The notes below the pieces were generated by a model. That model was not told where the DNA came from. It ran no database searches and saw only the letters and a list, made by a program, of their open reading frames with translations. DNA of 64,000 nucleotides, taken from contig JANQKF010000001.1 in the NCBI GenBank assembly GCA_028281285.1, positions 62,001 through 126,000 on the forward strand, given 5' to 3'. A program made the translations under genes and the position numbers. This DNA comes from Cyclobacteriaceae bacterium. Lineage in GTDB: Bacteria; Bacteroidota; Bacteroidia; Cytophagales; Cyclobacteriaceae. Position 1 is the first letter of the stretch. Every line of letters starts with the position of its first letter. Below are positions 30,087-43,754 of the stretch, in pieces.

Positions 30087-31463
30087 CTAGTTATCATCAT
30101 TGTACCTGAAAACTCGTGTTGTTGCGAAGCTATCGTACACAGGAAAGTATCGTTTGAAAATGGCCTTATACTTTTCATACTTGTTTCCGAGAGTGGTCTT
30201 ACCGTTCAGCAGATCCGAATATTGAAACATCAATGTTACCTTTTGTTTGTCTTCATTGAGAATCCCATCCTTGATCAATTCGCTTCTGATTTCGGCCATC
30301 ATTTTATCTGATTTTTCCAGTGCGTTTTGCCTACCGATGATGAATTTTATTGGCTCTCGATCGACCATGAGCACTTTTCCTTTTAAATTTTCAACACCCT
30401 TATCTTTGACGAGAACTTCCAGTTCCTTCCTGTCTTTGAGCCATAACGTGTCTTGTCTGGCCTGCTGTACAGGGGCAATTTCGTGAGTTTTCAACTCATT
30501 GTTTGAATAATTTACAAATGCAGAGCTCACCATGATAGTTAAGAAAAGTAAAGCCGCGAAGCCAATCTTGTGACTGACTGAGTTGTTGTTTTGAGTAATC
30601 ATACGTTCTATTCTGTTTTTAAATTCCGAATTGTTTTTGGCTGCGAGGGCAACCTGATTTGAAAGATTGATCTCCTGAAGTTTGATCAATGTTTTAGCGT
30701 AAGACAGATTGTTGTTCAGTTTCAGTACTTCATCATCGCAGGTATACTCCATTTCTTTTCGCAGATTCCTGACCATCAAAATCACGAAAGGATTAAAGAA
30801 GAAGGTGGTTTCGAGAAGGACCAGAATGGTATTTACCAGGTAGTCGTTTCTTCGAATATGAGCCAACTCATGTAGAAGAATAGTATCCAATTCTTGCGAA
30901 TTAAATCCTGAGATAAGGCCAGCAGGGAAATAAATGATGGGCTTCATTACACCCGTTGTCATGGGGGAGTTGACCAAAGGACTAACCAGTAACTTTATTC
31001 TTCGCCTAATACCTAAGCCCTTAGACAGGACATCTATTCTAGTAATGACCGATAGATCCGTACAAGGGATTGCCTTTGATCTATAGAGGTTCACCCGATT
31101 TTTGTTGACAAGATATCTAAGTACTCCAAATAAGGCTCCCAAAAGCCAAATCCAGCTTATCCATCGACTATTGTGGGTGATGGCGAGCTTGAGTTTGTCC
31201 ACAAAATTCAGTTCAAGATTGAAGACGGTTGGCTCCAGCCCCAAAGACCAAAAACTATAGACTTCTGGTTGAGTAGGAATTTGTTGGAAAAGGACTAAGA
31301 TAATGCTCAGAAGAAATAAGATAAGCCCACCAATTTTGATGATTCTTTTGGCACTTGATTGTGAAGTCAAAGTCGTGATCAAGCCGGTGAGAATCCAAAT
31401 GGCTGACCCTATCCAGAAAGAGTGGATCAATGTCCAGGACAATATTTCCTGTACACCGCTCAT
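30087..31463 (-). CDS. BlaR1/MecR1-like M56 membrane metalloprotease
   Basis: 458 residues. About four membrane helices and an M56 zinc-protease domain with HELAH (His198, Glu199, His202) followed by the RRNDYLVN motif. After the last helix (about 297-315) the periplasmic tail (about 320-458) is not a penicillin-binding sensor domain. It is short and holds EKSDKMMAEIRSELIKDG, as in many Bacteroidota copies. By analogy it is a sensor that cleaves the linked BlaI-type repressor; the signal is unlikely to be a beta-lactam. The start overlaps blaI by 4 bp. Confidence 0.9.
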   Translation of the reverse strand: MSGVQEILSWTLIHSFWIGSAIWILTGLITTLTSQSSAKRIIKIGGLILFLLSIILVLFQQIPTQPEVYSFWSLGLEPTVFNLELNFVDKLKLAITHNSRWISWIWLLGALFGVLRYLVNKNRVNLYRSKAIPCTDLSVITRIDVLSKGLGIRRRIKLLVSPLVNSPMTTGVMKPIIYFPAGLISGFNSQELDTILLHELAHIRRNDYLVNTILVLLETTFFFNPFVILMVRNLRKEMEYTCDDEVLKLNNNLSYAKTLIKLQEINLSNQVALAAKNNSEFKNRIERMITQNNNSVSHKIGFAALLFLTIMVSSAFVNYSNNELKTHEIAPVQQARQDTLWLKDRKELEVLVKDKGVENLKGKVLMVDREPIKFIIGRQNALEKSDKMMAEIRSELIKDGILNEDKQKVTLMFQYSDLLNGKTTLGNKYEKYKAIFKRYFPVYDSFATTRVFRYNDDN

Positions 31464-31843
31464 TGTTCCTGATCCTTGTTTTCCAACTTGTCTAACATAG
31501 CCCTAATTTCATCCAGTTCTTCTTTGTTTGGCTTTTGATTACCTAAAGCATGAAGGATCAAATTGGTGGATGATCCGCTGAAGACTTTGTTCACAAATCC
31601 ACCCAGCATTTCTTTCTGTATTTGCTCTTTTGCAACTGCCGGGCTGTATATGTGAGTCTGGCCCTTGGGTTCTCGGGTTAAAAGATCTTTCTCATACATA
31701 TTTTGAATGATCTTCAGTGTAGTGGTGTAACCGGTGTTCTTGATCTTTACCAGCTCATTATGTACTTCACGAGCGGTCGAGTCGCCAAGATCCCATAAGA
31801 CTGTCAGGATTTCTAGTTCACTATTTGTTGGAGATATTGACAT
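31460..31843 (-). CDS. BlaI/MecI/CopY family repressor
   Basis: 127 residues, the standard length. N-terminal winged helix (SELEILTVLWDLGDSTAREVHNEL, TTTLKIIQNMYEKDLLTREPKGQTHIYSP) and a C-terminal dimerisation helix (FVNKVFSGSSTNLILHAL). It probably represses its own operon and is removed when the M56 partner cleaves it. Two dyads with TACGA-N6-TCGTA half-sites lie 15 and 69 bp upstream of its start. Confidence 0.93.
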   Translation of the reverse strand: MSISPTNSELEILTVLWDLGDSTAREVHNELVKIKNTGYTTTLKIIQNMYEKDLLTREPKGQTHIYSPAVAKEQIQKEMLGGFVNKVFSGSSTNLILHALGNQKPNKEELDEIRAMLDKLENKDQEQ

Positions 31844-31857
31844 GTTTCTTAGTTAAT

Positions 31858-31875
31858 CTACGATTAGTATCGTAG
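31858..31875. promoter_or_regulatory. BlaI-type operator 1
   Basis: Perfect dyad CTACGAT-TAGT-ATCGTAG, 15 bp upstream of the blaI-like start. The half-site TACGA-N6-TCGTA resembles the TACA-x-TGTA-type dyads bound by BlaI/MecI/CopY proteins. It is repeated at 31912-31933. Confidence 0.75.
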
Positions 31876-31911
31876 CAAAGAAATAGAGTGCGATTTTAAG
31901 AAACAAGAAAA

Positions 31912-31933
31912 ACCTACGATTTTTGTCGTAGGT
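31912..31933. promoter_or_regulatory. BlaI-type operator 2, also terminator-like on minus strand
   Basis: Perfect dyad ACCTACGA-N6-TCGTAGGT with the same TACGA-N6-TCGTA geometry as operator 1. On the minus strand the dyad is followed by TTTTTCTTGTTTC, so it also looks like a terminator for the TfoX-like gene, whose stop is 30 bp away. The one sequence may serve both uses. Confidence 0.65.
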
Positions 31934-31963
31934 GATCAAAATATTTAATTAGAGAGGTTGGAG

Positions 31964-32308
31964 CTACTTTTTCTTTTTGCTGGATTTCGCCAACGGGTTG
32001 AAGTCAAGACAAAGTTGAACCCAATATTCCAGTCCTTCATCGGTATCGATGCCTTCACCTTCTACAAAAACGAAGCCTTTCATCGCTCGCCCGGTAAAGT
32101 TCATTTCCTTACAGCCTGGCTTGTTCAATGCCTCTTCGTAGAGATCAGGGTTGATGCGTGCCATGATTTCATCTTTCACAATACCAACGCACATTTTATC
32201 ATCCACCATATAGCATAGTCCACCCATCATTTTCTTAGATTGATAGACTATCCCTTTATCTTTTAATATGTGATCGATGCGGTCTTCAAGGAGTTCGTTG
32301 TAAGCCAT
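31964..32308 (-). CDS. TfoX N-terminal-domain protein
   Basis: 114 residues. Matches the TfoX_N domain: an N-terminal helix (ELLEDRIDHILKDKG), KKMMGGLCYMVDDKMCVGIVKDEIMARINPD, a middle GCKEMNFTGRAMKGFVFVEGEG, and a basic Lys tail. In gamma-proteobacteria TfoX regulates competence, but stand-alone TfoX_N proteins in Bacteroidota have no known role. No TfoX C-terminal domain is present. Single gene; a dyad downstream may end it. Confidence 0.88.
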   Translation of the reverse strand: MAYNELLEDRIDHILKDKGIVYQSKKMMGGLCYMVDDKMCVGIVKDEIMARINPDLYEEALNKPGCKEMNFTGRAMKGFVFVEGEGIDTDEGLEYWVQLCLDFNPLAKSSKKKK

Positions 32309-32330
32309 GATTTTGAAATTACGAATTACA

Positions 32331-32360
32331 AATTGAGAATTAAGAATTAGATTCTCAATT
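32331..32360. repeat. AT-rich inverted repeat
   Basis: AATTGAGAAT-N10-ATTCTCAATT, 10-bp perfect arms, in the gap between the 32393-33259 gene and the TfoX-like gene. It could be the 3' hairpin of the former (minus strand), but no clear U-tract follows. Confidence 0.45.
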
Positions 32361-32392
32361 AGAGGACGATTGACTTACGATAAAATGGACTT

Positions 32393-33259
32393 CTAAACTC
32401 CAATAATTTTCTTGGATGCGGCTATTCCAGCTACCAAAAACCCACATAACACTCGTGCCTGATCATGTGGGGTGGGCTGATTAACAAATTCTGAAGCTCT
32501 TAAGATCGCTCCGTTAAATGGAGTTGTCAGCCATTCCCCAAATGGAAGGGGAGTTAATTTCTCGTAGAAGTTATCGCCAGTTGCTGACCATGTAGTGATA
32601 TAGTAGTACGGCTCGTCAATGGCTTCATCATGAATTGCGAAGCCTATGCTGTATGATTTGATGGCATTGCCTTGATCATCAAATACCATGGGAATATAGG
32701 CTCCATTATCGAAATGATGAGGCCAGGTACGAACTGGAGAAGCAGTTTTGTCTTGTGCTGCAAATGCCTTCAAAATGATATCACTATTGGCTCGATGGTT
32801 GGCCATTTCTGCAAATAACTCAGGGTCATTGTATTCAAAAGGAGCTCCATCATCTGTCGGATGATGAGGAATATCATAATGTAAATCCAGTTTTAATTGC
32901 TCACCATCCACTTCAAGTTGATGTAATCGAACTTTGACCCAATCCAGAATTTGTGATAAGACCTGACCATGGAGAGGGTAGTGGTCTATTTCACTCATCT
33001 CCTCATCAAACATGATCAATCTTAAATCTTTTGGTCTCATGGCAAATCGAAACTTGCCTTTTGGACTATTGGCCCAATTGCCTGCCAGGACTTCATGCTC
33101 TGAGAGCCATTCCATATTAGTATGACTGTCATCTGCCTGATTTTCAACATAGTATTTACCCACCATGGAGATGAACTGCACTCCTCTGTGAATCATGTTA
33201 ATTGCAGGGGCCAGAGATTTAGGATCTAGACTAAGAGGCTTCCAGTCGAAATTGTTCAT
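32393..33259 (-). CDS. Conserved hypothetical protein
   Basis: 288 residues with no signal peptide and no family I can name. It is rich in His, Trp and Pro, with HYDIPHHPTDDGAPFEY, RTWPHHFDNGAYIPMVF, and YYYITTWSATGDNFYEKLTPLPFGEW in the middle. It ends in a hydrophobic helix (QARVLCGFLVAGIAASKKIIG). The many acidic and His residues would allow metal binding. It forms an operon with a zinc-ribbon-like protein (one-base overlap) and a DUF427 protein upstream. It may be an enzyme of small-molecule metabolism, but nothing proves that. Confidence 0.6.
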   Translation of the reverse strand: MNNFDWKPLSLDPKSLAPAINMIHRGVQFISMVGKYYVENQADDSHTNMEWLSEHEVLAGNWANSPKGKFRFAMRPKDLRLIMFDEEMSEIDHYPLHGQVLSQILDWVKVRLHQLEVDGEQLKLDLHYDIPHHPTDDGAPFEYNDPELFAEMANHRANSDIILKAFAAQDKTASPVRTWPHHFDNGAYIPMVFDDQGNAIKSYSIGFAIHDEAIDEPYYYITTWSATGDNFYEKLTPLPFGEWLTTPFNGAILRASEFVNQPTPHDQARVLCGFLVAGIAASKKIIGV

Positions 33260-33531
33260 TATCTACTGATTTCTTTCAGGTCTTTATCGTAATTGGTCTG
33301 GCAGGTTGCACATACATATCCCTGACTATGCTTCTTTAACTGGATTCCACTCACATGGTTTACCACAAAGTCTTGAATAAAGGCATGTCGACTTGAGTTA
33401 TTGTTTACATCGATCTGCTTGTCTTCCATCAAGTCAATCGCCTTGCCTCCATATTCTTGTCTTCCCCAACAATTCGGGCAGACACCTTCCGGAGTTGGTA
33501 TTGATTTATTTTTCTTAAAAATACCCATCAC
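33259..33531 (-). CDS. Small protein with two CxxC pairs
   Basis: 90 residues. Two Cys pairs, CPNC near residues 18-21 and CATC near 74-77, suggest one zinc ribbon split by a helical insert (SSRHAFIQDFVVNHVSGIQL). Start could be either of two adjacent Met codons. It overlaps the DUF427 gene (4 bp) and the hypothetical gene downstream (1 bp), so the three are co-expressed. Function unknown. Confidence 0.7.
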   Translation of the reverse strand: MMGIFKKNKSIPTPEGVCPNCWGRQEYGGKAIDLMEDKQIDVNNNSSRHAFIQDFVVNHVSGIQLKKHSQGYVCATCQTNYDKDLKEISR

Positions 33532-33809
33532 TCCTCAACTTGGACACCTCTCCAAAAGGCGACATAATTTTTGATTCCTTTGGCCAACTCTGAAGTTTCA
33601 GGGTAATACCATGCCGCATCCGTGTTTTCACTACCGTTCACTTCAACCGTATAATAACTAGCGACACCTTTCCAGGGACATGTAGTATGCGTGTTGCTCT
33701 CTTTGTAGTACTCTTTTTTTATGGAGTCATGAGGGAAATAGTGATTACCTTCCACAACTACCGTTTCATTGCTTTCAGCGATTACTTCGCCATTCCAAAT
33801 AGCTTTCAT
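33528..33809 (-). CDS. DUF427 family protein
   Basis: 93 residues, the usual size of DUF427. Signature residues are visible: KAIWNGEVIAESNETVVVEGNHYFP, TTCPWKGVASYYTVEVNG and AAWYYPETSELAKGIKNYVAFW. DUF427 is a small beta-barrel family of unknown biochemical role. First gene of a three-gene operon with the CxxC protein and the hypothetical protein; it lies 56 bp after the malic enzyme gene and may share its transcript. Confidence 0.9.
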   Translation of the reverse strand: MKAIWNGEVIAESNETVVVEGNHYFPHDSIKKEYYKESNTHTTCPWKGVASYYTVEVNGSENTDAAWYYPETSELAKGIKNYVAFWRGVQVEE

Positions 33810-33865
33810 TTCTTAATTATTTTGTTGAAAACCGATTGGACGGTTGTAATGTTCCCAAAATGACT

Positions 33866-35482
33866 TCAGTAGGTCGGGTCGAACATGTAATTGTCAATTA
33901 CCTGACGAATGTCGTCCGGTCGGTCGGTTCTGGCAAGGTCATGATCATAGATAGTTTCGGCCACTGCAGCGGCTATATTCAACGAGATTTCACGTATGTT
34001 GGGCAAAGGAGGATATAGCGCTCCCTCATTAATGTCACTATCACTAACCTGATCGGCAAGCGTATGAGCAGCAGTCAGGAAGCATTCCTCAGGAATTTTC
34101 TTAGCCTCCGACATGATTGCTCCAAGTCCAATTCCAGGAAAGATATAGGCATTATTGCCCTGCCCCGGTCTGTAGGTTCTACCTCCGTAGTTGACTTTTC
34201 TGAATGGACTTCCACTTGCAAAAATTGCCTGCCCATTACTCCAGGAGTAAGCCTGTCGTGCAGTACATTCAGCTCTTGAGGTAGGGTTTGACAATGCAAA
34301 AATCACAGGCCTATCATTGATTTCAGTCATTTTCTCAATGACTTCACGGGTAAAGGCCCCGCCAAATCCAGTCGCACCAATTAGCACATGCGGCTGGATG
34401 CTTTCAATTGCTTCCATAAACCCACAATGCTCATAGTCATGGGCATAGGGGAGGTTATGTTCCATCAAATCATCCCGACCAGAAACCACCAACCCGTTCA
34501 CATCTACAAACCATAGTCTTTGCAAGGCCTCTGTTTCCGTTAGACCGGATTGCTCGAAGGCCGCTACCATTAGATCTGCAATGCCTGTTGCTGCCGATCC
34601 AGCACCAAGGAACATGATTTTGAGGTCCTTGAATGGAATACCTGTGATTTTGGTCGAAGCATAGACCCCTGCAAGTGTTACTGCCGCGGTGCCTTGTATA
34701 TCATCATTGAAGCAGAGCACTTTGTCACGGTACTTGTTAAGAAGTCCATACGCATTTGGGGTAAGAAAATCTTCAAATTGGATAAGTGCTTTTGGATACT
34801 TTTCCTGAACAGCCATTACAAATTCATCGACCAATTCAAAGTAGGCATCTCCTGTGAGCCGTTTATGTGGATATCCAAGGTATAGAATATCGTTAAGAAT
34901 TTCTTCATTATTTGTTCCCACGTCAAGCATTACGGGTAGGCATTGATCCGGACGAATGCCAGCACATGCGGAGTAGAGGGCAAGCTTTCCGATGGGTATA
35001 CCCATTCCGTTTGCCCCTAAATCACCTAGCCCCAGAATCCGTTCTCCATCTGTGACTACAATACAGCGAATGTCTTTTTTTGGCCAATTGTCAAGGATTT
35101 TTCGAATTTCACCCTTGTCATCCGGAGTGATGTAGAATCCCTTGGATTCCCGGAAAATCTGAGAAAACTCTTTGCACGCCTGTCCAACTGTTGGCGTGTA
35201 GATGATGGGCATGAGTTGCTCAATGTTATCAATAACTGCCCGATAATATAGACGTTCATTGCGGTCCTGCAATGCGGAAAGCAGAACATACCTTTCGATA
35301 TCTGATTCCTTTCTACGAAGGTTTTCCAATAGTCGTGTGAGTTGAAGCTCTTGTGACCCAACAGAATAGGGCAGTAGTCCCCGAAGGCCATATTTCTCTC
35401 GTTCCTTACGGGAAAATGCAAGTGATTTATTGATTACAGCATCCTGTAATACATCAAAATTTCTCTTCTCGGTGTCGGCCAT
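33866..35482 (-). CDS. maeA: NAD-dependent malic enzyme
   Basis: 538 residues, SfcA/MaeA type. It converts malate to pyruvate and CO2 with reduction of NAD. Motifs: IIYTPTVG near 97-104, the RILGLGDLGANGMGIPIGK region with the catalytic Tyr/Lys context, CFNDDIQGTAAV (metal ligands) and the dinucleotide fold FLGAGSAATGIADLM. The length fits the single-domain 60-kDa enzymes, not the PTA fusion type. It is the last gene of the Rieske-rich operon, 8 bp after the TPP enzyme, which probably uses its product pyruvate. Confidence 0.94.
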   Translation of the reverse strand: MADTEKRNFDVLQDAVINKSLAFSRKEREKYGLRGLLPYSVGSQELQLTRLLENLRRKESDIERYVLLSALQDRNERLYYRAVIDNIEQLMPIIYTPTVGQACKEFSQIFRESKGFYITPDDKGEIRKILDNWPKKDIRCIVVTDGERILGLGDLGANGMGIPIGKLALYSACAGIRPDQCLPVMLDVGTNNEEILNDILYLGYPHKRLTGDAYFELVDEFVMAVQEKYPKALIQFEDFLTPNAYGLLNKYRDKVLCFNDDIQGTAAVTLAGVYASTKITGIPFKDLKIMFLGAGSAATGIADLMVAAFEQSGLTETEALQRLWFVDVNGLVVSGRDDLMEHNLPYAHDYEHCGFMEAIESIQPHVLIGATGFGGAFTREVIEKMTEINDRPVIFALSNPTSRAECTARQAYSWSNGQAIFASGSPFRKVNYGGRTYRPGQGNNAYIFPGIGLGAIMSEAKKIPEECFLTAAHTLADQVSDSDINEGALYPPLPNIREISLNIAAAVAETIYDHDLARTDRPDDIRQVIDNYMFDPTY

Positions 35483-35490
35483 ATGTTAAT

Positions 35491-37437
35491 TTAGATAAGG
35501 CTCACATCCGCGATCACCTCAAGCATTGCCGGACCTTTATGATCCAGTACTTGCTTCATGGCATCTTCCAGGTCCTCTTTTTTCTCTACCCGAATTCCCA
35601 GAGCTCCGCAGCTGTTCGCATAATCTGCAAAGTTAGGGTTTGAAAGATCAGTTGCCCAAACATCAAACTCACCAGCTCGCTGTTCTTTAGATATCTTACC
35701 AAGCTCCGAATTGTTTAAAAGAATTAGCTTAATCGGCATGTTGTACTTGACAGCGGTTGTCATTTCTGCAAGGTATTGACAGAATCCTCCATCTCCGGCC
35801 ACGGCAATTACCGGTCTTGAATCACCAACAGCTGCCCAGGCTCCCATAGCCGCTGGAAAGGCGAACCCTATTGAGCCCAGATAACCGGACATTAGGAACG
35901 TATGACTTCGACTTTCGAAATATCGCCCGAAAGAATAGGCGTTGTTCCCGACATCAACACACATCACAGCGTCTTCCGGGGCTAGTTTGTTCATGGCTTC
36001 AAATATGGCAATAGAACTTACACCCTGACCGTGGTCATCAAGCATACGTTTGGCTTTCTCCGATTTCCAGATGGCCCATCGTTTCGCCACTTCAGGCCTT
36101 TGATCTACAGAATTTGATTTGTCAGATAATGCCTGTTTGAATAGATCAACGGTCACGGATATTTCTCCCCAGACGGCCGCATCGATTTTATGGAACTTGC
36201 TCAATGCAAGTGGGTCAAAGTCAACCTGAATTGTAGGTTTATGATCAGTAATGCCTGTATGATTTGAAAATGAGGCACCAAAGACACAGAGTAGATCGGC
36301 CTCATTCATAAACCAGGAGGCAATTGGAGTTCCACTTCTTCCAAGTACCCCACAGCCTAATGGATGATTATCCGGAATTTGTCCTTTGCCCTTGAATGTG
36401 GTCATCACGGGTGCGTTGATGCTTTCTGCAAAGGCAATAATAGCATCCATATTGAATCGGGCTCCGTGCCCAACGATAATGACCGGTCTTTTTGATTCCT
36501 TGAGCATGTCAATAGCCTTGTCCAGGCTTTCTTTTGGAGGTGCAATTTGGATGGGGGTGATCCTTCCTTCCGGTGTTTGAGACTTGGAATTGGCAGGGGC
36601 TGGTAATTCCTGGACTTCGTCAGGGAAGGTAAGGTGTGATACATCTCTCCTTAAAATGGCATGCTTGACAGCCAAAGACATCAATTCTGAGTGTTTGGAA
36701 TTGTTCTGAACGCGATGATTGAATTCGGCCACTGTGCTAAAAGCTCTCACCAAATCCACTTCCTGGAAATTGCCTGTTCCTACTACCTGAGTAGCTACTT
36801 GACCTGTCAGAGCGAGAATAGGTGCGCGATCTACTTTTGCGTCCCATAGCCCTGTAAAAAGATTAGTGGCACCAGGCCCCGCAATGGAGAAACAAGCCGC
36901 GGGCTTGCCGGTAAGCTTGCCATAGGCAGAAGCCGCGAACGCGGCTGCACCTTCATGGCGAATGCCATAGAAGTTGAGCTTACCGGCTTCTTCAGCTCTT
37001 CGCATGGCATCGGCAAAGCCCAGGTTGGAATGGCCAACCATTCCAAATACTTTATTTACTCCCCAATTAGTCATGGTTTCTACCATCACATCCGAAATGG
37101 TTGTTTGATGAGGAGCCTCTTCCTCCAAACCAACGAATACAGCACCATCTTCCACTTTGGTCAGAAAAGTGTCTACCCCATCGTCATATCCGGGAGCTTT
37201 GCCCGTACATGGATGATAATCCCACCCGTGCCAAGGACAACGCAGGAGTCCATTTTCAATGCTTCCTTCACCTAATGGTCCTCCCTGATGCGGACAGCGG
37301 TTATCCAATGCAGAATACTGACCTTCAAAATGGGTCAGACAAATGCCTTGATGTCCAGCCGTAACCGACATGACACGACCTTCTGGAAGTTCAGAAGCAT
37401 CATCTAACACTTTGTACCATTTCATACTTTTTCCCAT
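35491..37437 (-). CDS. Rieske-TPP fusion enzyme (pyruvate oxidase/ALS-like)
   Basis: 648 residues. Residues 1-107 are a Rieske [2Fe-2S] domain with Cys48, His50, Cys67 and His70 (CPHQGG, CPWHGW). Residues about 112-648 are a full three-part thiamine-diphosphate enzyme: catalytic Glu162 in RHEGAAAF, the middle dinucleotide-type domain, and the TPP motif GDGGF (548-552) ending in LILLNN. The core looks like acetolactate synthase/pyruvate oxidase/POX-type enzymes. No AHAS regulatory subunit is near. A fused Rieske domain suggests electrons from the TPP reaction go to a redox partner, probably a membrane protein of the same operon. Substrate (pyruvate) is inferred from the malic enzyme gene 8 bp downstream. 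Confidence 0.88.
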   Translation of the reverse strand: MGKSMKWYKVLDDASELPEGRVMSVTAGHQGICLTHFEGQYSALDNRCPHQGGPLGEGSIENGLLRCPWHGWDYHPCTGKAPGYDDGVDTFLTKVEDGAVFVGLEEEAPHQTTISDVMVETMTNWGVNKVFGMVGHSNLGFADAMRRAEEAGKLNFYGIRHEGAAAFAASAYGKLTGKPAACFSIAGPGATNLFTGLWDAKVDRAPILALTGQVATQVVGTGNFQEVDLVRAFSTVAEFNHRVQNNSKHSELMSLAVKHAILRRDVSHLTFPDEVQELPAPANSKSQTPEGRITPIQIAPPKESLDKAIDMLKESKRPVIIVGHGARFNMDAIIAFAESINAPVMTTFKGKGQIPDNHPLGCGVLGRSGTPIASWFMNEADLLCVFGASFSNHTGITDHKPTIQVDFDPLALSKFHKIDAAVWGEISVTVDLFKQALSDKSNSVDQRPEVAKRWAIWKSEKAKRMLDDHGQGVSSIAIFEAMNKLAPEDAVMCVDVGNNAYSFGRYFESRSHTFLMSGYLGSIGFAFPAAMGAWAAVGDSRPVIAVAGDGGFCQYLAEMTTAVKYNMPIKLILLNNSELGKISKEQRAGEFDVWATDLSNPNFADYANSCGALGIRVEKKEDLEDAMKQVLDHKGPAMLEVIADVSLI

Positions 37438-37440
37438 GAC

Positions 37441-37839
37441 TTATGATTTGGATATGCTTTTCAAATATTGATTTCGTTTGATTTTAACTGAACGGACTGA
37501 GAATATCATTAGTAAGATCGTGGCCAGTACCAAAGTGGCTATTCCGATGATTACAAGAATATGATGATAAGTCAGATCAATCATGATATTCTGAAGGTCA
37601 GAGATGCCGCCAACTAGTCCAGCAATTGCAAAAACCGAGGTGCTTATATACAAGCACACCATTGCGATATTTAGCAACGACATTTGAGAGATTTTGACCT
37701 GTACCAGTTGGGTATTGCACTCTTTTTCGTGGAGCAACGCATTGATTTCATCGCTGATGGCGGTAGATAAGTTTGAAGTCGACATGATCATCATGCCGAT
37801 TCTCGGAAGCAAGGTGAGTGGTATGATCCAATTGTCCAT
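37441..37839 (-). CDS. DUF2721 membrane protein
   Basis: 132 residues with three hydrophobic helices. Matches DUF2721: an N-terminal helix (LLPRIGMMIMSTSNLSTAI), then LLHEKECNTQLVQVKISQ, two long helices and a basic tail. The family has no known role. It shares a base with the gene upstream and ends 3 bp before the Rieske-TPP gene, so it belongs to the Rieske operon. Confidence 0.85.
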   Translation of the reverse strand: MDNWIIPLTLLPRIGMMIMSTSNLSTAISDEINALLHEKECNTQLVQVKISQMSLLNIAMVCLYISTSVFAIAGLVGGISDLQNIMIDLTYHHILVIIGIATLVLATILLMIFSVRSVKIKRNQYLKSISKS

Positions 37840-38639
37840 CAGTCAAGTCGTTTAATTTCTGAAGGATTAATATAGATTACATTCCATTCATCATGTGTTT
37901 CTATGCGTCCTGATAACGAAGCCGGATCTGCAACATAAGGAAGTACTTCACTATTAATCTGCTCTCCATTTTCACCCATGATCAAGTAGTAATCCGCTTG
38001 ATCCAACTCATTTTGTGTCACGAACATTGGCGGAATACCTCCGGCTATACATAAACCAGCACAAGACCGATGTGGTTTGCCTTGTCCGGGTTTCATCGAA
38101 CCGAAATAACATTTTGGGTCTACGATTTCGCCCTCCAATTGGGCAAACCCTCGTCCGACTTTTACAGGATAATACATGTAATCGGCATCGAGGTCTTCTG
38201 AGTCCAGATAGGCCTTTTCTTTTTCGGTTAACTCTAGCAAAGTGACACCATTGTGATAGATTAAGGTGCCTCGCAGTTTCACCTTGACTTCATTCAAAGG
38301 TCGGCCAATCTTAGCCTTGATCTTCTGAATTGATTCTAGTGCTCCAAATTTTCCATAATTGATCAATAGGATATTCTTGAATACATCGTGTCCATGAATG
38401 TCTTTTCCGGCATGAACTTTTAAAAAGGGTTGTGGACTTTCATATAAAATACCTTCCACTTCAGTTAATTCACCATACTCGTAGGTTCCGTTAGAGATGA
38501 ACCGCTGGGAAGAACCAATTGTGAACGCCACAGCTACCGCGATCAGGAAAAGCAATACAACAATCTGCCTCGAAAACTTGGCAATGCCCTTAGGGGCATT
38601 TGGCAGGTATCCGATATAGAATTCCTTTTTCCTATTCAT
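37839..38639 (-). CDS. Membrane-anchored protein with Cx15Cx3C motif
   Basis: 266 residues with an N-terminal membrane anchor (about 25-43) and a large soluble part, probably periplasmic. A conserved-looking block GEIVDPKCYFGSMKPGQGK-PHRSCAGLCIAGGIPP gives C-x15-C-x3-C with nearby His and Pro, which would suit a haem, copper or Fe-S site. I have no family name for it. It overlaps the ferric-reductase-like gene by 8 bp and DUF2721 by 1 bp, inside the Rieske operon, so a redox role is likely. Confidence 0.65.
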   Translation of the reverse strand: MNRKKEFYIGYLPNAPKGIAKFSRQIVVLLFLIAVAVAFTIGSSQRFISNGTYEYGELTEVEGILYESPQPFLKVHAGKDIHGHDVFKNILLINYGKFGALESIQKIKAKIGRPLNEVKVKLRGTLIYHNGVTLLELTEKEKAYLDSEDLDADYMYYPVKVGRGFAQLEGEIVDPKCYFGSMKPGQGKPHRSCAGLCIAGGIPPMFVTQNELDQADYYLIMGENGEQINSEVLPYVADPASLSGRIETHDEWNVIYINPSEIKRLD

Positions 38640-39675
38640 TACCTTCAGTTTTAGGTATTATTATTGGAGGTCTTTCCGTTCCTTCAGGATGAGGCTTTGG
38701 ACTGACCATTACTCTATCCCCTTCTAACTTCAGGTCATAGGTGCTTACTTTTTCAGTGAATGGAGGAGGAGAGGAGCCGTTATGAGGCTCATACTGATAG
38801 CCATGCCATGGACAGGTTACACATCCATCAATCACTTTGCCTTCCCCCAACGGGCCGTTCTGGTGCTTGCATACGTTGTTGATGGCCGATAGCTTGCCCT
38901 CATACTTGAAGATGGCGATGTTCTCTCCGTTAAGCGTTATGATTTTAGCGCTGTCATCAGCAATGTCATCCAGATCACAGGCATAGGCGAATTCTTGAGT
39001 GGTAATTTCATCTACGGCTCTGGTGGACCTCAGTGACGAAGTAATATGTAAGGAGGCAATTAGTAGAAAACCAACCGCCAAAAGGCCGATAAGGATAGGT
39101 GAATTTTCCAACTGTATAGCGCCTAGTACTACATGCATGATGATCAGGGCATAAGCTAAGTATACCATCATATGTAATGTTTTCCACACCTTAGGAGTGA
39201 GGTTTTTCAACCAAAAGTCGTGACTGGTTGCAGCCATCAAAAAGAAGATGATCAAAGCAAAAAAGCCGAGTACCTGAAAAGGGAATTGAGTGAATGATAG
39301 ATAATTGGTGTTAGAAGTGAACAGTGCTACCAAAGCCACTTTGTTTCCTAATGAACTGAATTGAAGAATACTAAACACCCCATGGACCAAGGCAACCAGG
39401 AACATGGTAACCCCTAAGTGTCTACGATTATAAAGCAAAGGGAGGAATTTGGTATTTAATCGTGCTAATGGACCAATTGAAAGAATGATATGCAAGAGCA
39501 ATAGGGCTAGGGTTGCAGTTGCTCTTATGATTAAGGTCTCGGCCGTAATCTCAGGTTGATAGGTGGATGTAATACCAATAAAACCAACGAGATAGACCAA
39601 TACAAACACTACCAAGATCGTATCATAGATCTTCTTTTGACGGTTCCATAATATGGGGGCATAGTCCACACTCAT
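38632..39675 (-). CDS. Ferric-reductase-like haem protein with Rieske tail
   Basis: 347 residues. Six hydrophobic helices (about 17-37, 45-70, 84-104, 133-150, 163-186 and 192-212) resemble the ferric-reductase-like/MsrQ domain. Possible haem-binding His are His62, His86, His98, His168 and His181. Residues about 225-325 are a cytosolic Rieske domain (Cys269, His271, Cys288, His291; CKHQNG, CPWHGY). This would pass electrons across the membrane between a [2Fe-2S] centre and b-haem. It overlaps its neighbours in the operon by 4-8 bp. Confidence 0.86.
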   Translation of the reverse strand: MSVDYAPILWNRQKKIYDTILVVFVLVYLVGFIGITSTYQPEITAETLIIRATATLALLLLHIILSIGPLARLNTKFLPLLYNRRHLGVTMFLVALVHGVFSILQFSSLGNKVALVALFTSNTNYLSFTQFPFQVLGFFALIIFFLMAATSHDFWLKNLTPKVWKTLHMMVYLAYALIIMHVVLGAIQLENSPILIGLLAVGFLLIASLHITSSLRSTRAVDEITTQEFAYACDLDDIADDSAKIITLNGENIAIFKYEGKLSAINNVCKHQNGPLGEGKVIDGCVTCPWHGYQYEPHNGSSPPPFTEKVSTYDLKLEGDRVMVSPKPHPEGTERPPIIIPKTEGNE

Positions 39676-40124
39676 GGCCGAATACTATTTAAGGGTTCTG
39701 AATGCAGGACTCTCTTTTTGAGTTGGTCATAAATAACCAGGTAGCCTTTTCCCGGTATTCTTGACCACGGAATGAAAAATGGATAGATGTCCATTTCGTT
39801 GATTTCGCCTAGCAGGATGGATTGATCCGTAGGGTTTTCTTCTTCACTCAAATACACCAGCGTGAAGGCAGATTTTAGTGGATTTTCAAAGGCAACGACC
39901 ACTTTGGCCACACTGTCCTGGTTTTCATAGTGAAATTCGAATAGCGCCTTTTCATCATCATGGGTTGCAAGGCAATTGGTAATACCCAATGGGCAGTAAT
40001 TGATGGGTATATCCTCGATTGAATTCTTAGGGATTGCATTCATCCCCAATACCAAAATGAGAGCAAATGGAATGAATAAGCCCAACCAAATTCGTTTATG
40101 ACGCTTTCTTAGTTGAATATTCAT
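39672..40124 (-). CDS. Membrane-anchored hypothetical protein
   Basis: 150 residues with a basic N-terminus and one hydrophobic segment (about 13-30), then a beta-rich soluble part, likely periplasmic. A short Cys pair occurs in YCPLGITNC (C-x6-C). No family is recognised. Overlaps of 4 bp with both neighbours place it in the Rieske operon, just before the ferric-reductase-like gene, so it may be an accessory subunit. Confidence 0.6.
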   Translation of the reverse strand: MNIQLRKRHKRIWLGLFIPFALILVLGMNAIPKNSIEDIPINYCPLGITNCLATHDDEKALFEFHYENQDSVAKVVVAFENPLKSAFTLVYLSEEENPTDQSILLGEINEMDIYPFFIPWSRIPGKGYLVIYDQLKKRVLHSEPLNSIRP

Positions 40125-40354
40125 GACTTGGCTCTATTCCACTTCTTCAACAAAATCGGCCATAAAGCCACAATCCCTGGAAAGATAAGCACCTTGAAGA
40201 AGCGTGGTGCTTTTTTGACACCATCATCGATGAGGTGCACTCCGGTTTTCATAAACGGGAAGTAGAATATTATTCCAATCAGGAGGTAGAGACCCGCTAG
40301 AATTAATGCTATAGAAACAACCTGTACTGCCATGTCAAGGATTAACTCCTGCAT
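40121..40354 (-). CDS. Small two-helix membrane protein
   Basis: 77 residues with two hydrophobic helices (about 9-34 and 52-68) and a basic loop (KKAPRFFKV) and tail. Its start lies 20 bp inside the end of the GltB-like gene and its end overlaps the next gene by 4 bp, so it is translated as part of the operon. Probably a membrane anchor for the GltB-like Rieske protein. No family recognised. Confidence 0.65.
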   Translation of the reverse strand: MQELILDMAVQVVSIALILAGLYLLIGIIFYFPFMKTGVHLIDDGVKKAPRFFKVLIFPGIVALWPILLKKWNRAKS

Positions 40355-41948
40355 AAGGAATTCCGGTCAGCTTATGCATATCCCAATTAAATGTGCTCAA
40401 ATCTGACCTTTCAAACTTTGTGAAATTGTCATGTCCGCAAGACCGAGCAATTACCTTCATCAAATCCGTAGTGGCCGAAAAGAAATTGAACAGCTGTTTG
40501 GCTGAAGCCTGAATCTGAAGGCGCTGTCTTAGGTTTTCCTTTTGAGTGGCGATACCCACGGGGCAGTTGTTGGTGTTACAGGCTCTCATTCCCAAGCAGC
40601 CTATGGCTTGAAGAGCCGAATTGGACACTGCGATGGCATCTGCACCCATCATCATCGCTTTTGCAAAATCCTCTGCAACGCGCAGTCCTCCGGTAATCAC
40701 AAGACTTATTCCTTTGGCTCCACGATCGTCCAAATGCTTTCTGGCTCTTGCCAAGGCTGGGATGGTAGGCACATTAATGTTATCCCTGAGTACAATTGGT
40801 GCGGCTCCTGTTCCACCACCACGTCCATCAAGAATGATATAATCAACACCCACTTCTAATGCGAAGTCGATGTCTTCTTCCAATCTTGCAGCTGATATCT
40901 TGAATCCTACGGGAATTCCTCCCGTGACTTCTCTGACCTTTGCAGTGAAGTCCTTAAAATCCCGTACGCCATGGAAATCGGGGAAAGTGGCAGGAGAGAT
41001 AGCCGATTCACCCTCATTCAACCCTCGAACTTCTGCAATTTCCTTGGAAACCTTATGTCCGGGCAAATGTCCGCCTGTTCCTGTTTTAGCTCCCTGACCT
41101 CCTTTGAAATGAAAAGCTTGAACATTTGCCAGCTTGTCCCAGGAAAAACCGAATTGGGCTGAGGCCAGTTCATAGAAATACCTGGAGTTATTGGCCTGCT
41201 CATCGGGTAGCATTCCACCTTCCCCTGAACATATTCCTGTTCCTGCCATTTCTGCCCCTTTCGAAAGTGAGATTTTCGCTTCTCTTGACAGTGCGCCAAA
41301 TGACATGTCTGAAACAAAAATCGGAATATCTAACTCCAGAGGTTTATTGGCGTTTGGTCCGATTACAGTCTTGGTTTCCACCTCTTCATGATCGAGTAGC
41401 GGCCTCCTGGAAAGTTGAGCAGGTAGAAACTGAATATCTTCCCATTTTGGTAACGCATTGCGATCAACACCCATGGCCTCCGTAGGGCCATGATGTCCCC
41501 AATTCTTTAATCCATTTCTAGCCAGCTCCTGAATATAGCGGGTATAGGGTTCGGTGCTTTCGGGATGAGTGTCATCATAAATACCGAGATATCGGTCCCT
41601 GTTAAATGGGGCTGGATGATCAACTTCATAGTCGAGTACATCTTGCCGATCGATGAGGACCTCATCGCCACTGATTTGCGAAGGAAACTTATGCAGAAAC
41701 TCACTGTTGTTGTATTCGCTTACGCCCGTATCAATGCGATAATCCCAATTATGCAATCCGCAAATCAGGTTATGGCCATCCACATGGCCATCGGCAAGTA
41801 GTGCACCTCGATGAAGGCATCTTCCGTAAAGAACGGACACATTTTCATCATAACGGATCACTACAAGATCGGTAGATGAAACAAGAGCATGAGCCGGAAC
41901 TTTGTCCTGAAGCTCAGAAAATAGAGCAACCTTTACAGGGTCTTTCAT
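40335..41948 (-). CDS. Rieske-GltB-like FMN/Fe-S oxidoreductase
   Basis: 537 residues. An N-terminal Rieske domain (about 5-105; Cys44, His46, Cys63, His66, with CLHRGA and CGLHNW) is fused to a glutamate-synthase-type TIM barrel that binds FMN (IFVSDMSFGALS, SGEGGM, GGQGAKTGTGGHLPG, LDGRGGGTGAAP) and a 3Fe-4S cluster (Cys451, Cys457, Cys462 in CLGMRACNTNNCPVG). There is no glutaminase domain, so it is one of the 'FMN-binding glutamate synthase-related' proteins, not GOGAT itself. It leads the eight-gene operon 41948-33866. Substrate unknown. Confidence 0.88.
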   Translation of the reverse strand: MKDPVKVALFSELQDKVPAHALVSSTDLVVIRYDENVSVLYGRCLHRGALLADGHVDGHNLICGLHNWDYRIDTGVSEYNNSEFLHKFPSQISGDEVLIDRQDVLDYEVDHPAPFNRDRYLGIYDDTHPESTEPYTRYIQELARNGLKNWGHHGPTEAMGVDRNALPKWEDIQFLPAQLSRRPLLDHEEVETKTVIGPNANKPLELDIPIFVSDMSFGALSREAKISLSKGAEMAGTGICSGEGGMLPDEQANNSRYFYELASAQFGFSWDKLANVQAFHFKGGQGAKTGTGGHLPGHKVSKEIAEVRGLNEGESAISPATFPDFHGVRDFKDFTAKVREVTGGIPVGFKISAARLEEDIDFALEVGVDYIILDGRGGGTGAAPIVLRDNINVPTIPALARARKHLDDRGAKGISLVITGGLRVAEDFAKAMMMGADAIAVSNSALQAIGCLGMRACNTNNCPVGIATQKENLRQRLQIQASAKQLFNFFSATTDLMKVIARSCGHDNFTKFERSDLSTFNWDMHKLTGIPYAGVNP

Positions 41949-42037
41949 AGGAGGTCAATTAAAAAGTCTCGTGTTACGTAAGCTAATTAATTACCCTCGC
42001 AAAAGAAAGTCTGTTAGGCGACCGACAAATTCTGGAT

Positions 42038-42742
42038 TTATGAAGATCGGGCTACCGTATATGTCTTTTGGCTTGCCAATTCTCGGGTCCTGATAAAGTA
42101 GAGATAATCTGCCAGTAAGAAGGCTCCAATTCCAGTGAATATATGCCATAGAAAATGCGTGCCGAAAGGAACAATATGAGTGAAATCCTTGTCGGCTCCT
42201 CGAAAGTAAATGGCCAATATGAAGCAGACTATGGCAAGCAAAATTTGGACAATATGGTCACCTCCGGTCCTTTTCAGTATTAAGACCACAGGCAGGAGAA
42301 ATGCAATTCCACCAATCGCATAGGACATATTGATGGCGAATTGACCTGAGAACACTGCAAAGATTCCGAACCGAGCCAGGAAGACGCCCACCATTACCAG
42401 AATACCCATCCACCATTTGGGTAAAATTTTGATCCAGAGATAAGCAGTAATAGAAAGGGTCAGGAGCAGAGCCGGCATGTAGTCCATGACGAGAAAAACC
42501 CTTGAAGATCTCAAGCCGTGAAAAAGTGTACTGCCAATGCCATTCAGAAACAAGATGGGAATGCACCAAAGCAGAAAGCCATATTGCAGCGGCTGTTTTC
42601 TGATTTTCCAAAGGAAATAAACGGCTGGTGCCGCTATGACCAACGAGGAAAAAGCATTCCAGGGTTCTACTATTAAATTGTTAGTAATGTGGGTTTCGGC
42701 ATACCACGGGCCTCCGTCACTAATCTGGTCTGGTCCGAACAT
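42038..42742 (-). CDS. CREST/alkaline-ceramidase-like membrane hydrolase
   Basis: 234 residues with about seven helices. It has the CREST-superfamily pattern of metal-dependent membrane hydrolases: EPWNAFSSLV (Glu/Asn), GIGSTLFHGLRSS (Ser/His), MDYMP (Asp) and a late H-x3-H pair in GTHFLWHIF. CREST members include alkaline ceramidases and PGAP3-like proteins that hydrolyse amides or lipids in membranes. Bacteroidota make sphingolipids, so a ceramide-like substrate is plausible but unproven. Single gene upstream of the Rieske operon and in the same direction. Confidence 0.78.
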   Translation of the reverse strand: MFGPDQISDGGPWYAETHITNNLIVEPWNAFSSLVIAAPAVYFLWKIRKQPLQYGFLLWCIPILFLNGIGSTLFHGLRSSRVFLVMDYMPALLLTLSITAYLWIKILPKWWMGILVMVGVFLARFGIFAVFSGQFAINMSYAIGGIAFLLPVVLILKRTGGDHIVQILLAIVCFILAIYFRGADKDFTHIVPFGTHFLWHIFTGIGAFLLADYLYFIRTRELASQKTYTVARSS

Positions 42743-42857
42743 GTGAGTTTTTACTATTCCTTACTCAACTGAATGAATGGGAATTAGGTTGCCGAATTTT
42801 TCACTTTTGTGATAAACTGATGACACTTTGGGCTACACGATAATTGCAATGAACTAG

Positions 42858-43754
42858 CTAATTCGTTAAGGTGAAAATCATGATCTCGACATTTCCATCC
42901 TTTGTACGTGTACAAACAATACGACCGGATCCATCCTTTGCTGCTACAGGTTTGGTATAACTGGCGTTCTCTTGTTCACCATAGGTGATTTTGGTGATTT
43001 CTGAACCGTTCAAGTCGATTATGTGAATTTGAAAATCTTTGCCATTATGTCGGTTAGAGGCAAAAAGTATATGCTCTCCATCGGCCGACCAGGTAGGCCA
43101 TCCATCAAAAGCTGTGTTGTAGGTCAAGCGCTCTTCTTTACCGGAATCGATATCCAATACAAACAGGTCACCTGAACTCCTATTACCTTCTATTTCTACC
43201 CAGCGCACGAACACGATCTTTTTTCCGTCCGGAGACCAGTGGGCATAAGTGTCAGGCCTTTCGGAGGTAGTTAGCCTCCGGATGCTCCTGGTAGCAAGGT
43301 GTATGGTATAAAGGTCGTAATCACCTGTTCTGTCAGAGTTAAACAATAAATACTGTCCATCAGGAGAGAACTGTGGATGGATGTTCTTCCCTTTTCCTTC
43401 AGTCAGATTCAGTTGGTTTTTTCCATTAATGTCCATTAGGTAAATATCTTGATGGTTGTTCCTGACAGATGCAAAAGCGATTTTTTCGTTGTCAGGGGAG
43501 AAAACAGGATACTCATCCAGGCCCGGGTTGAAAGTCAGCCTTCGAATGGCTTTGCCATCATCAGATGAGACGTATATTTCCGAATCATCGTCATTCCGGT
43601 TGGATTGAAAAACCAATTGACGTCCATCACTTGACCAACTCGGATAGGAGGTTTCGATATTGGTAATTTTGATCAGAGTGTCCAATTTCCATTGTGTCTG
43701 GGCCTGCGTTCCGACTAACATTAAGAGTGTCAATAGACACATTATTCTTTTCAT
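42858..43754 (-). CDS. Secreted PD40 propeller, paralogue of regulator sensor domain
   Basis: 298 residues with a signal peptide (MKRIMCLLTLLMLVGTQAQ). The rest is a TolB-like six-bladed propeller with SPDG/SADG turns. It matches the periplasmic domain of the regulator at 45553-46947 along its whole length, sharing ETSYPSWS, QSNR near the start, RRLTFN/KRLTFN, LLFNSDRTG/ILFDSDRSG and CTRTKDGNVE at the end. It looks like a released copy of the sensor domain. It overlaps the upstream stripped permease gene by 4 bp, so they are co-translated. Confidence 0.8.
   Translation of the reverse strand: MKRIMCLLTLLMLVGTQAQTQWKLDTLIKITNIETSYPSWSSDGRQLVFQSNRNDDDSEIYVSSDDGKAIRRLTFNPGLDEYPVFSPDNEKIAFASVRNNHQDIYLMDINGKNQLNLTEGKGKNIHPQFSPDGQYLLFNSDRTGDYDLYTIHLATRSIRRLTTSERPDTYAHWSPDGKKIVFVRWVEIEGNRSSGDLFVLDIDSGKEERLTYNTAFDGWPTWSADGEHILFASNRHNGKDFQIHIIDLNGSEITKITYGEQENASYTKPVAAKDGSGRIVCTRTKDGNVEIMIFTLTN

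Follow-up and report, generated by a model that had tools for sequence, protein, structure and literature searches.

Introduction

Transmembrane electron transfer by proteins of the ferric reductase domain (FRD) superfamily is described in two forms that lie close to the system analysed here, namely MsrPQ/YedZ, where a single-domain bacterial FRD protein has a periplasmic partner, and bacterial NOX, where an FRD membrane core is fed from the cytosolic side, as set out for SpNOX in passages of PMC5676040. The closest described relatives of the soluble enzymes treated below are the pyruvate oxidases E. coli PoxB and L. plantarum POX, as well as glutamate synthase (GltB / Fd-GltS). Here we analyse a set of eight genes, termed A to H, on the minus strand of a 64,000-nucleotide stretch of DNA (the window) from a marine Cyclobacteriaceae bacterium (assembly GCA_028281285.1, contig JANQKF010000001.1, positions 62,001 to 126,000), in which three separate proteins carry a Rieske domain. 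Our preferred interpretation, to which we give slightly less than an even chance, is that this operon encodes a transmembrane electron-transfer module in which two cytosolic enzymes, A and G, are wired by Rieske domains.

Results

An operon with three Rieske fusions

The A-H set occupies positions 33866-41948, and the open reading frame (ORF) coordinates bear out the original prediction that its eight minus-strand genes all overlap or lie at most 8 bp apart. The overlaps measure 20 bp for A/B, 4 bp for both B/C and C/D, 8 bp for D/E and 1 bp for E/F, and the gaps are 3 bp for F/G and 8 bp for G/H; the set is separated by 89 bp from the upstream gene (42038-42742) and by 56 bp from the downstream gene (33528-33809). 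The three Rieske fusions of equal spacing proposed earlier are likewise recovered by Pfam and by reading out the ligands. Protein A (40335-41948, 537 aa) joins a Rieske domain (PF00355, 1e-11) to a glutamate-synthase-type FMN/3Fe-4S barrel (Glu_synthase, PF01645, 2e-90) without a glutaminase domain, D (38632-39675, 347 aa) joins a six-helix ferric-reductase/YedZ-type haem domain (Ferric_reduct, PF01794, 2e-13) to a C-terminal, predicted cytosolic, Rieske domain (PF00355, 1e-15), and G (35491-37437, 648 aa) joins a Rieske domain (6e-16) to a pyruvate-oxidase-like thiamine pyrophosphate (TPP) enzyme with three TPP domains.

The Rieske ligands read from the sequence are C44-x-H46-x16-C63-x2-H66 in A, C269-x-H271-x16-C288-x2-H291 in D and C48-x-H50-x16-C67-x2-H70 in G, and they are invariant in 40/40 A, 20/20 D and 78-79/79 G proteins aligned (window included; one G row is short). 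This spacing is the usual one for Rieske-type ferredoxin domains, and its presence in all three proteins is not remarkable in itself. The genome as a whole has seven Rieske domains at E <= 1e-4, three of which fall within the 8-kb A-H set. In a tree of small sampling, built from 31 of the 44 Rieske matches of eight genomes (13 were left out), the D and G domains form sister clades with a support of 0.98, which suggests a common origin or a common partner for these two, while the A domains form a separate clade (support 1.0), on which the tree says nothing further. Neither a Rieske oxygenase nor a cytochrome bc1/b6f Rieske protein matches these features: Pfam reports no non-haem iron catalytic domain in A, D or G, and D has a Ferric_reduct domain with a Rieske domain that matches ferredoxin-type models.

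The membrane unit

Six helices with both termini inside are predicted for D by the positive-inside rule, so that its Rieske domain should be cytosolic. Seven histidines of D (H62, H86, H98, H152, H168, H181 and H210) are unchanged in 20/20 aligned sequences. By spacing, H98, H168 and H181 match the YedZ/STEAP1-type histidine set given in sections 11-12 of PMC3591440, and the cytosol-side position of transmembrane helix 3 (TM3) is an arginine, as in YedZ. The six helices with haem histidines in TM3 and TM5 place D in the YedZ/MsrQ branch of the FRD superfamily, and the further invariant H62, H86, H152 and H210 make a second haem possible. D matches the MsrQ model at 1e-9 but with 38 bits against an equivalog cut-off of 130, and it is not a NOX enzyme by Pfam, which finds only Rieske-type domains after the FRD and no FAD/NADPH domains. 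No molybdoenzyme (MsrP) family is present among the scanned genes of 30087-43754, the rest of the genome not having been searched.

The gene for E (37839-38639, 266 aa) follows D in all 19 D-bearing loci of the G scan described below and in 24/24 D stretches, where it was called as an ORF in 22, recovered by tblastn in L154, and recovered over its first 42 residues, up to the contig end, in L152. E has one N-terminal membrane helix and two OB-like domains, seen in an AlphaFold2 model with a pLDDT of 83.9, for which structure searches returned generic OB folds only. The second of these domains contains the motif D-x-K-C...H-x2-C-A-x2-C, invariant in 19 aligned sequences and comprising C177, H190, C193 and C197. 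Moreover, D and E are fused as one 623-aa protein in a member of the Saprospiraceae (L094), where A (in two frames), the fusion and G follow in a row. E is probably a membrane-anchored, double-OB extracytoplasmic partner of D, and the best reading of the D-E pair, as judged from its sequence, is a YedZ-like transmembrane electron conduit.

Two small proteins are encoded between A and D. B (40121-40354, 77 aa) is a two-helix membrane protein by hydropathy, homologues of which adjoin D in other classes, and C (39672-40124, 150 aa) has a single N-in helix by hydropathy and a predicted periplasmic domain, and evolves fast, with 19-35% identity to 11 homologues. The Pfam scan matched no family in B, C or E. 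Three D-centred stretches (L149, L151 and L154) have a GNAT protein (Acetyltransf_5) near D-E, joined in L151 and L154 by acyltransferase-family genes, DinB-like and hydrolase/VTT/ATP-grasp proteins, suggesting a lipid context for D-E in some lineages.

The two Rieske-bearing enzymes

Among solved structures, the best match of G is E. coli pyruvate dehydrogenase [cytochrome] (PoxB; 4e-79), which aligns over the whole TPP part and ranks ahead of acetolactate synthase (ALS). The catalytic glutamate E162, GDG548-550, NN575-576 and K581 are found in 79/79 aligned proteins, giving the GDG...NN pattern and glutamate of a pyruvate oxidase. G keeps PoxB F112 (as F224), and the ALS tryptophan motif was sought in G and not found. 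Glycine positions of the middle domain and D406 are conserved, at sites that we take to be those binding FAD in PoxB. The best NCBIfam model is PRK08611 pyruvate oxidase, with 415 bits against a cut-off of 742; among the matches listed, the remaining models for pyruvate oxidase or dehydrogenase have smaller scores, all below their own cut-offs.

The 3Fe-4S-type cysteines that had been proposed for A are present as C451-x5-C457-x4-C462 and unchanged in 40/40 aligned sequences, in keeping with an FMN barrel bearing a 3Fe-4S cluster. The full-length GltB model gives A only 137 bits against a cut-off of 1047 and is spanned from 865 to 1149 of 1490, such that A is neither a full-length glutamate synthase nor equipped with its glutaminase part. 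Rieske and CDGSH are both [2Fe-2S] domain types with histidine ligands, and the closest Rieske-less homologues of A (64% identity over the barrel) carry two N-terminal CDGSH domains in the same place, in 3/3 read as well as in Vibrio fortis. These CDGSH-GltS-type barrels lie at 5680-7230 of L214, 6390-7901 of L215, 5938-7452 of L216 and 441-1961 of L217, where the gene adjoins one for ALS. That the same barrel bears either Rieske or CDGSH argues that the plug is functional wiring, and the swap provides a natural experiment on the role of such plugs.

Conservation and co-occurrence

A search for D in 59 genomes gave high scores in its own genome, in 10 of 18 further genus members (one a partial match), in 4 of 18 genomes from other genera of the family, and in none of 22 genomes from other families of the order. 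Across nine genus loci (L031-L039), each read over 14-20 kb, D and E are present in 9/9, A in 8/9 (L033 is cut by a contig end) and G in 8/9. The cytosolic enzymes are the most constrained, A sharing 81-89% and G 84-88% identity with the window, compared with 72-82% in D, 47-72% in E and 29-39% in C. A decayed copy is seen in L046/L114 (G023), where A has lost a large internal segment and all that is left of D, beside a full-length G, is 18 residues from its start.

Conservation beyond the strain had been set as a test of the original prediction, and the Rieske fusions indeed prove to be co-inherited across 196 family genomes and linked in other classes. D occurs in 23 of these genomes, G in 26 and Rieske-bearing A in 34; D and G coincide in 14 (Fisher p 5e-9), D and A in 18 (4e-12) and G and A in 23 (1e-18), and A is present in all 14 genomes that hold both D and G. 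Collapsing to genera leaves p values of 4e-4, 1e-5 and 3e-11, respectively, and in a phylum-wide sample of 395 genomes 6 of the 13 with D also have G, which occurs in 11 overall (p 1e-7), all of these p values being inflated by shared ancestry and whole-island transfer. The counts assume an identical genome sample for the D, G and A searches, with which the listed handles agree. A matched in 39 family genomes, of which five without the Rieske part were left out: G077, G155 and G179, with CDGSH domains, and G141 and G215, with 44-45% identity and matches starting at residues 163 and 150. The internally shortened A of G023 and the partial G126 and G225 were counted, as were, for G, the rows G020, G091, G157 and G173, which are partial at contig ends (the G157 match misses the Rieske part).

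Linkage in other classes, phyla and plasmids

The G scan covered the best 80 of at least 577 relatives, with G placed by ORF calling in 78 loci and by tblastn in the other two, and the closest named loci among the matches listed are titled Roseivirga. At 64-88% identity, these 80 loci belong to Bacteroidota, Chlorobiota/FCB, Calditrichia, Acidobacteriota, Gemmatimonadetes, Planctomycetota, cyanobacteria and Shewanella hanedai; isolates among them are Flagellimonas, Aquimarina, Ulvibacterium, Xenococcus, Leptothoe and Shewanella, and many of the loci are metagenome-assembled genomes (MAGs), such that single foreign placements could be mis-binned. A lies on 43 of the 80 loci, and D with E lies near G in 19, 16 of which also have A; the linkage of D, G and A extends to other classes and to MAGs of Acidobacteriota. 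G also occurs without D.

Twenty further D-centred stretches were read. A stands beside D without G in six (L143, L144, L147, L148, L160 and L161), with the order A-B-D-E in the first four, while L150 has G-E-D and no A, and the four stretches L145, L146, L158 and L162 have all of A, D, E and G. A and G thus vary beside a constant D-E, making D-E the common element and A and G alternative or joint companions. The set is modular, each enzyme being found beside D without the other, and does not form one fixed chain. The electron route through membrane haem that had been proposed for this locus therefore survives insofar as the predicted topology of D fits it, but not as a single chain.

Plasmid records searched with tblastn extend this range. 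Four megaplasmids of haloarchaea carry G at about 60% identity, and a plasmid of Mycobacteroides carries it at 52%. Three of these four haloarchaea also have A (59%), whose distance from G is 1.4 kb in one, 4 kb in another and about 17 kb in Halorubrum. The Halorarius plasmid has an antiporter between A and G that is 30% identical to the antiporter beside G in Bacteroidota. Close to the Mycobacteroides copy of G are an annotated antiporter, without a match to the Bacteroidota antiporter marker, and a flavodoxin-family protein with 57% identity to one that flavobacteria and cyanobacteria have near G. D occurs at 44-47% in five Rhizobium plasmids. In the three that were read, a 256-aa gene overlaps the end of D by one base; in the one plasmid compared, this gene is an E homologue (28%, 2e-25), a B homologue (33%, 4e-6) lies upstream, and a 53-aa ORF between them resembles the start of C by eye. 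At a distance of about 3 kb is a gene annotated as a TPP enzyme, the one scored being ALS-like with no Rieske domain.

Accessory and neighbouring genes

H (33866-35482, 538 aa; Pfam Malic_M and malic) is a malic enzyme that scores 714 bits against the PRK13529 cut-off of 326 and is the only one found in its own genome using two queries. One or both of two distantly related types (about 27% identical) are present in 9/9 genus loci: a 408-aa malic enzyme between A and B in seven, and the H type in four, where it follows G in three loci and E in L039, with both types together in two. Beyond the genus, a malic enzyme is near G in only 1 of 77 loci not titled Roseivirga (Dokdonia, L102, one gene away), many of these loci being cut by contig ends. 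The malic enzyme is thus a genus-level add-on and not core, and its inclusion in the electron route as first proposed is not supported. F (37441-37839, 132 aa) is a two-helix protein that is weakly DUF2721-like, its Pfam matches being sub-threshold throughout (best DUF2721, PF11026, 20.3 bits against a cut-off of 28.3).

Just upstream of A, 42038-42742 encodes a ceramidase-like membrane protein (PF05875), with a homologue in the same place in 8/9 genus loci, the ninth ending at a contig edge; it may be a further operon gene or have a role in lipid metabolism. The DUF427 gene (33528-33809) 56 bp downstream of H has homologues near G in 10/80 loci. Farther downstream, 30087-31843 encodes a BlaI/MecI-type repressor and a BlaR1-type M56 peptidase (PF03965, PF05569), an ordinary signalling pair. 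A Pycsar effector-type membrane protein (PF18967) lies at 13207-13878 of L090, and its cluster is near G in seven loci.

Discussion

We suggest that D acts as a YedZ/MsrQ-like haem protein with a cytosolic Rieske domain where NOX enzymes have their flavin/NADPH domain, and that E is its extracytoplasmic partner, with B and C as small subunits of the D-E membrane unit. G would decarboxylate and oxidise a 2-oxo acid, most likely pyruvate, which the malic enzyme could supply in this genus, and its Rieske domain would pass the electrons on to that of D, its sister in the tree; A would exchange electrons with the D hub via its own. One fitting role would be periplasmic repair of the MsrPQ kind, with E as acceptor in the place of MsrP. 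At the level of sequence, this interpretation is carried by gene order, domains, invariant ligands, co-occurrence, linkage, the D-E fusion and the sisterhood of the D and G Rieske domains. From these we infer that electrons pass from one Rieske domain to another and run from the cytosol through haem to E as their acceptor, that the substrate is pyruvate, which reaction A carries out and what parts B, C and F play.

Several observations weigh against such a module. The arginine of D stands at the cytosol-side histidine position, which makes uncertain the second haem required to bridge the membrane. The grouping of the A, D and G Rieske domains together has a support of only 0.21, so that the A domain is not tied to the D/G pair. 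PoxB Phe465, which we take to act at the active site and used as a pyruvate-oxidase criterion, aligns to K581 of G and is lysine in 79/79 G proteins; the pyruvate-type oxidation first proposed thus agrees with the closest solved structure, but not with this residue or with any equivalog cut-off, and pyruvate is not settled as the substrate, being likely but unproven. Linkage is also incomplete. Of the G loci, 42 extend 7 kb or more to either side of the gene, and 15 of these show neither A nor D; A stands beside G in 26 of the 42, a Y3-type protein in 25, an antiporter in 23 and D in 13, so that the Y3-type protein and the antiporter accompany G about as often as A does and more often than D. 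Nine of the 20 D-centred stretches have no A or G nearby, some being cut by contig ends, 5 of the 23 D-bearing family genomes have neither, and L039 (G006, same genus) keeps A-B-C-D-E and H without F and G there.

The neighbours of G support an alternative that we consider doubtful, in which A, G and D-E would each act on their own in redox stress, co-regulated rather than wired, in an island with antiporter, K+ channel and thiol/sulfoxide-repair genes. G would then work in the manner of the pyruvate oxidases induced by stress, and the partners of the Rieske domains would be general ferredoxin-type ones. Near G in the 80 loci are the Y3-type protein (34), a Na+/H+ antiporter (28) and the DUF2721-like F (23), and a Pyr_redox_3 reductase, presumably YpdA-type, an EgtD-type methyltransferase, an ion channel and the FMN reductase family recur, as does an MsrA-like protein, judged by eye, among the thiol- and sulfoxide-related neighbours; plasmid copies lie near annotated antiporters, mercury reductase and peroxiredoxin. 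PRK08611, the best model for G, has a B. subtilis member that we take to be a general-stress protein. The stress explanation draws on these recurrent neighbours, but it fails to account for three Rieske fusions in one operon, for the sisterhood of the D and G domains, for the compact A, D-E and G of L094, or for B, D and E together in Rhizobium.

Reverse flow is improbable: D would take electrons from quinol or E and pass them through the cytosolic Rieske domain to A, which would reduce an imino or oxo acid, and G, instead of being an electron source, would be a second client, working reductively or without oxidation (acetolactate-type carboligation), for which speak the reductive nature of GltS barrels, the stretches with A beside D but no G, the ALS-like enzyme near D-E in Rhizobium, the ALS gene beside CDGSH-GltS and the missing Phe465, yet G aligns best with PoxB, keeps F112 without the ALS tryptophan motif, and a carboligase needs no electron-carrier domain.

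Returning to the wired module, its modularity can be generalised, though we hold this to be rather unlikely, to an electron bus of Bacteria and Archaea, in which interchangeable His-ligated [2Fe-2S] domains (Rieske, or CDGSH in the sister group of the barrel) would connect oxo-acid TPP enzymes and GltS-type barrels to a YedZ-like membrane conduit, and pyruvate-level electrons would cross the membrane to a double-OB Cys/His protein without a quinone or NAD(P)H carrier. It is part of the same doubtful proposal that the double-OB Cys/His protein E may represent a new class. Rieske domains as matching plugs predict that the Rieske domains of G and D exchange electrons. If true, the module would be a further way to feed FRD haem proteins besides the NADPH-flavin domains of NOX and the donors of MsrQ, and would give a role to two families that are annotated on plasmids only as thiamine pyrophosphate-binding or glutamate synthase-related protein.

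Searches of the open-licence PMC literature yielded no account of the three-fusion set, the D-E pair or a Rieske-TPP enzyme, so that the novelty claimed by the original prediction stands for the whole set; it does not extend to the Rieske-FRD fusion, which is already in print. The legend to Fig. 3 of PMC3591440 (model M4) names Rieske among the domains joined to bacterial FRD proteins but also lists FMN, absent from D, and the passages of that paper, with its sections 11-12, say nothing of the gene neighbourhood of Rieske-FRD, of enzymes that partner it or of what it does. G shares with PoxB and POX the TPP fold, the catalytic glutamate and the F112 equivalent, and differs from PoxB in its N-terminal Rieske domain, the lysine for Phe465 and the lack of an aligned counterpart of the last 45 residues. 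A has the FMN barrel and 3Fe-4S cysteine pattern of glutamate synthase, but an N-terminal Rieske domain (two CDGSH in homologues) and no glutaminase part. SpNOX, in the passages of PMC5676040, has FAD/NADPH domains where D has Rieske. D resembles MsrPQ/YedZ in its histidine pattern and in the adjacent partner gene E, and departs from it in adding a predicted cytosolic Rieske domain and in pairing with a double-OB protein instead of a molybdoenzyme. The whole system is best described as a variant of FRD-based transmembrane electron transfer.

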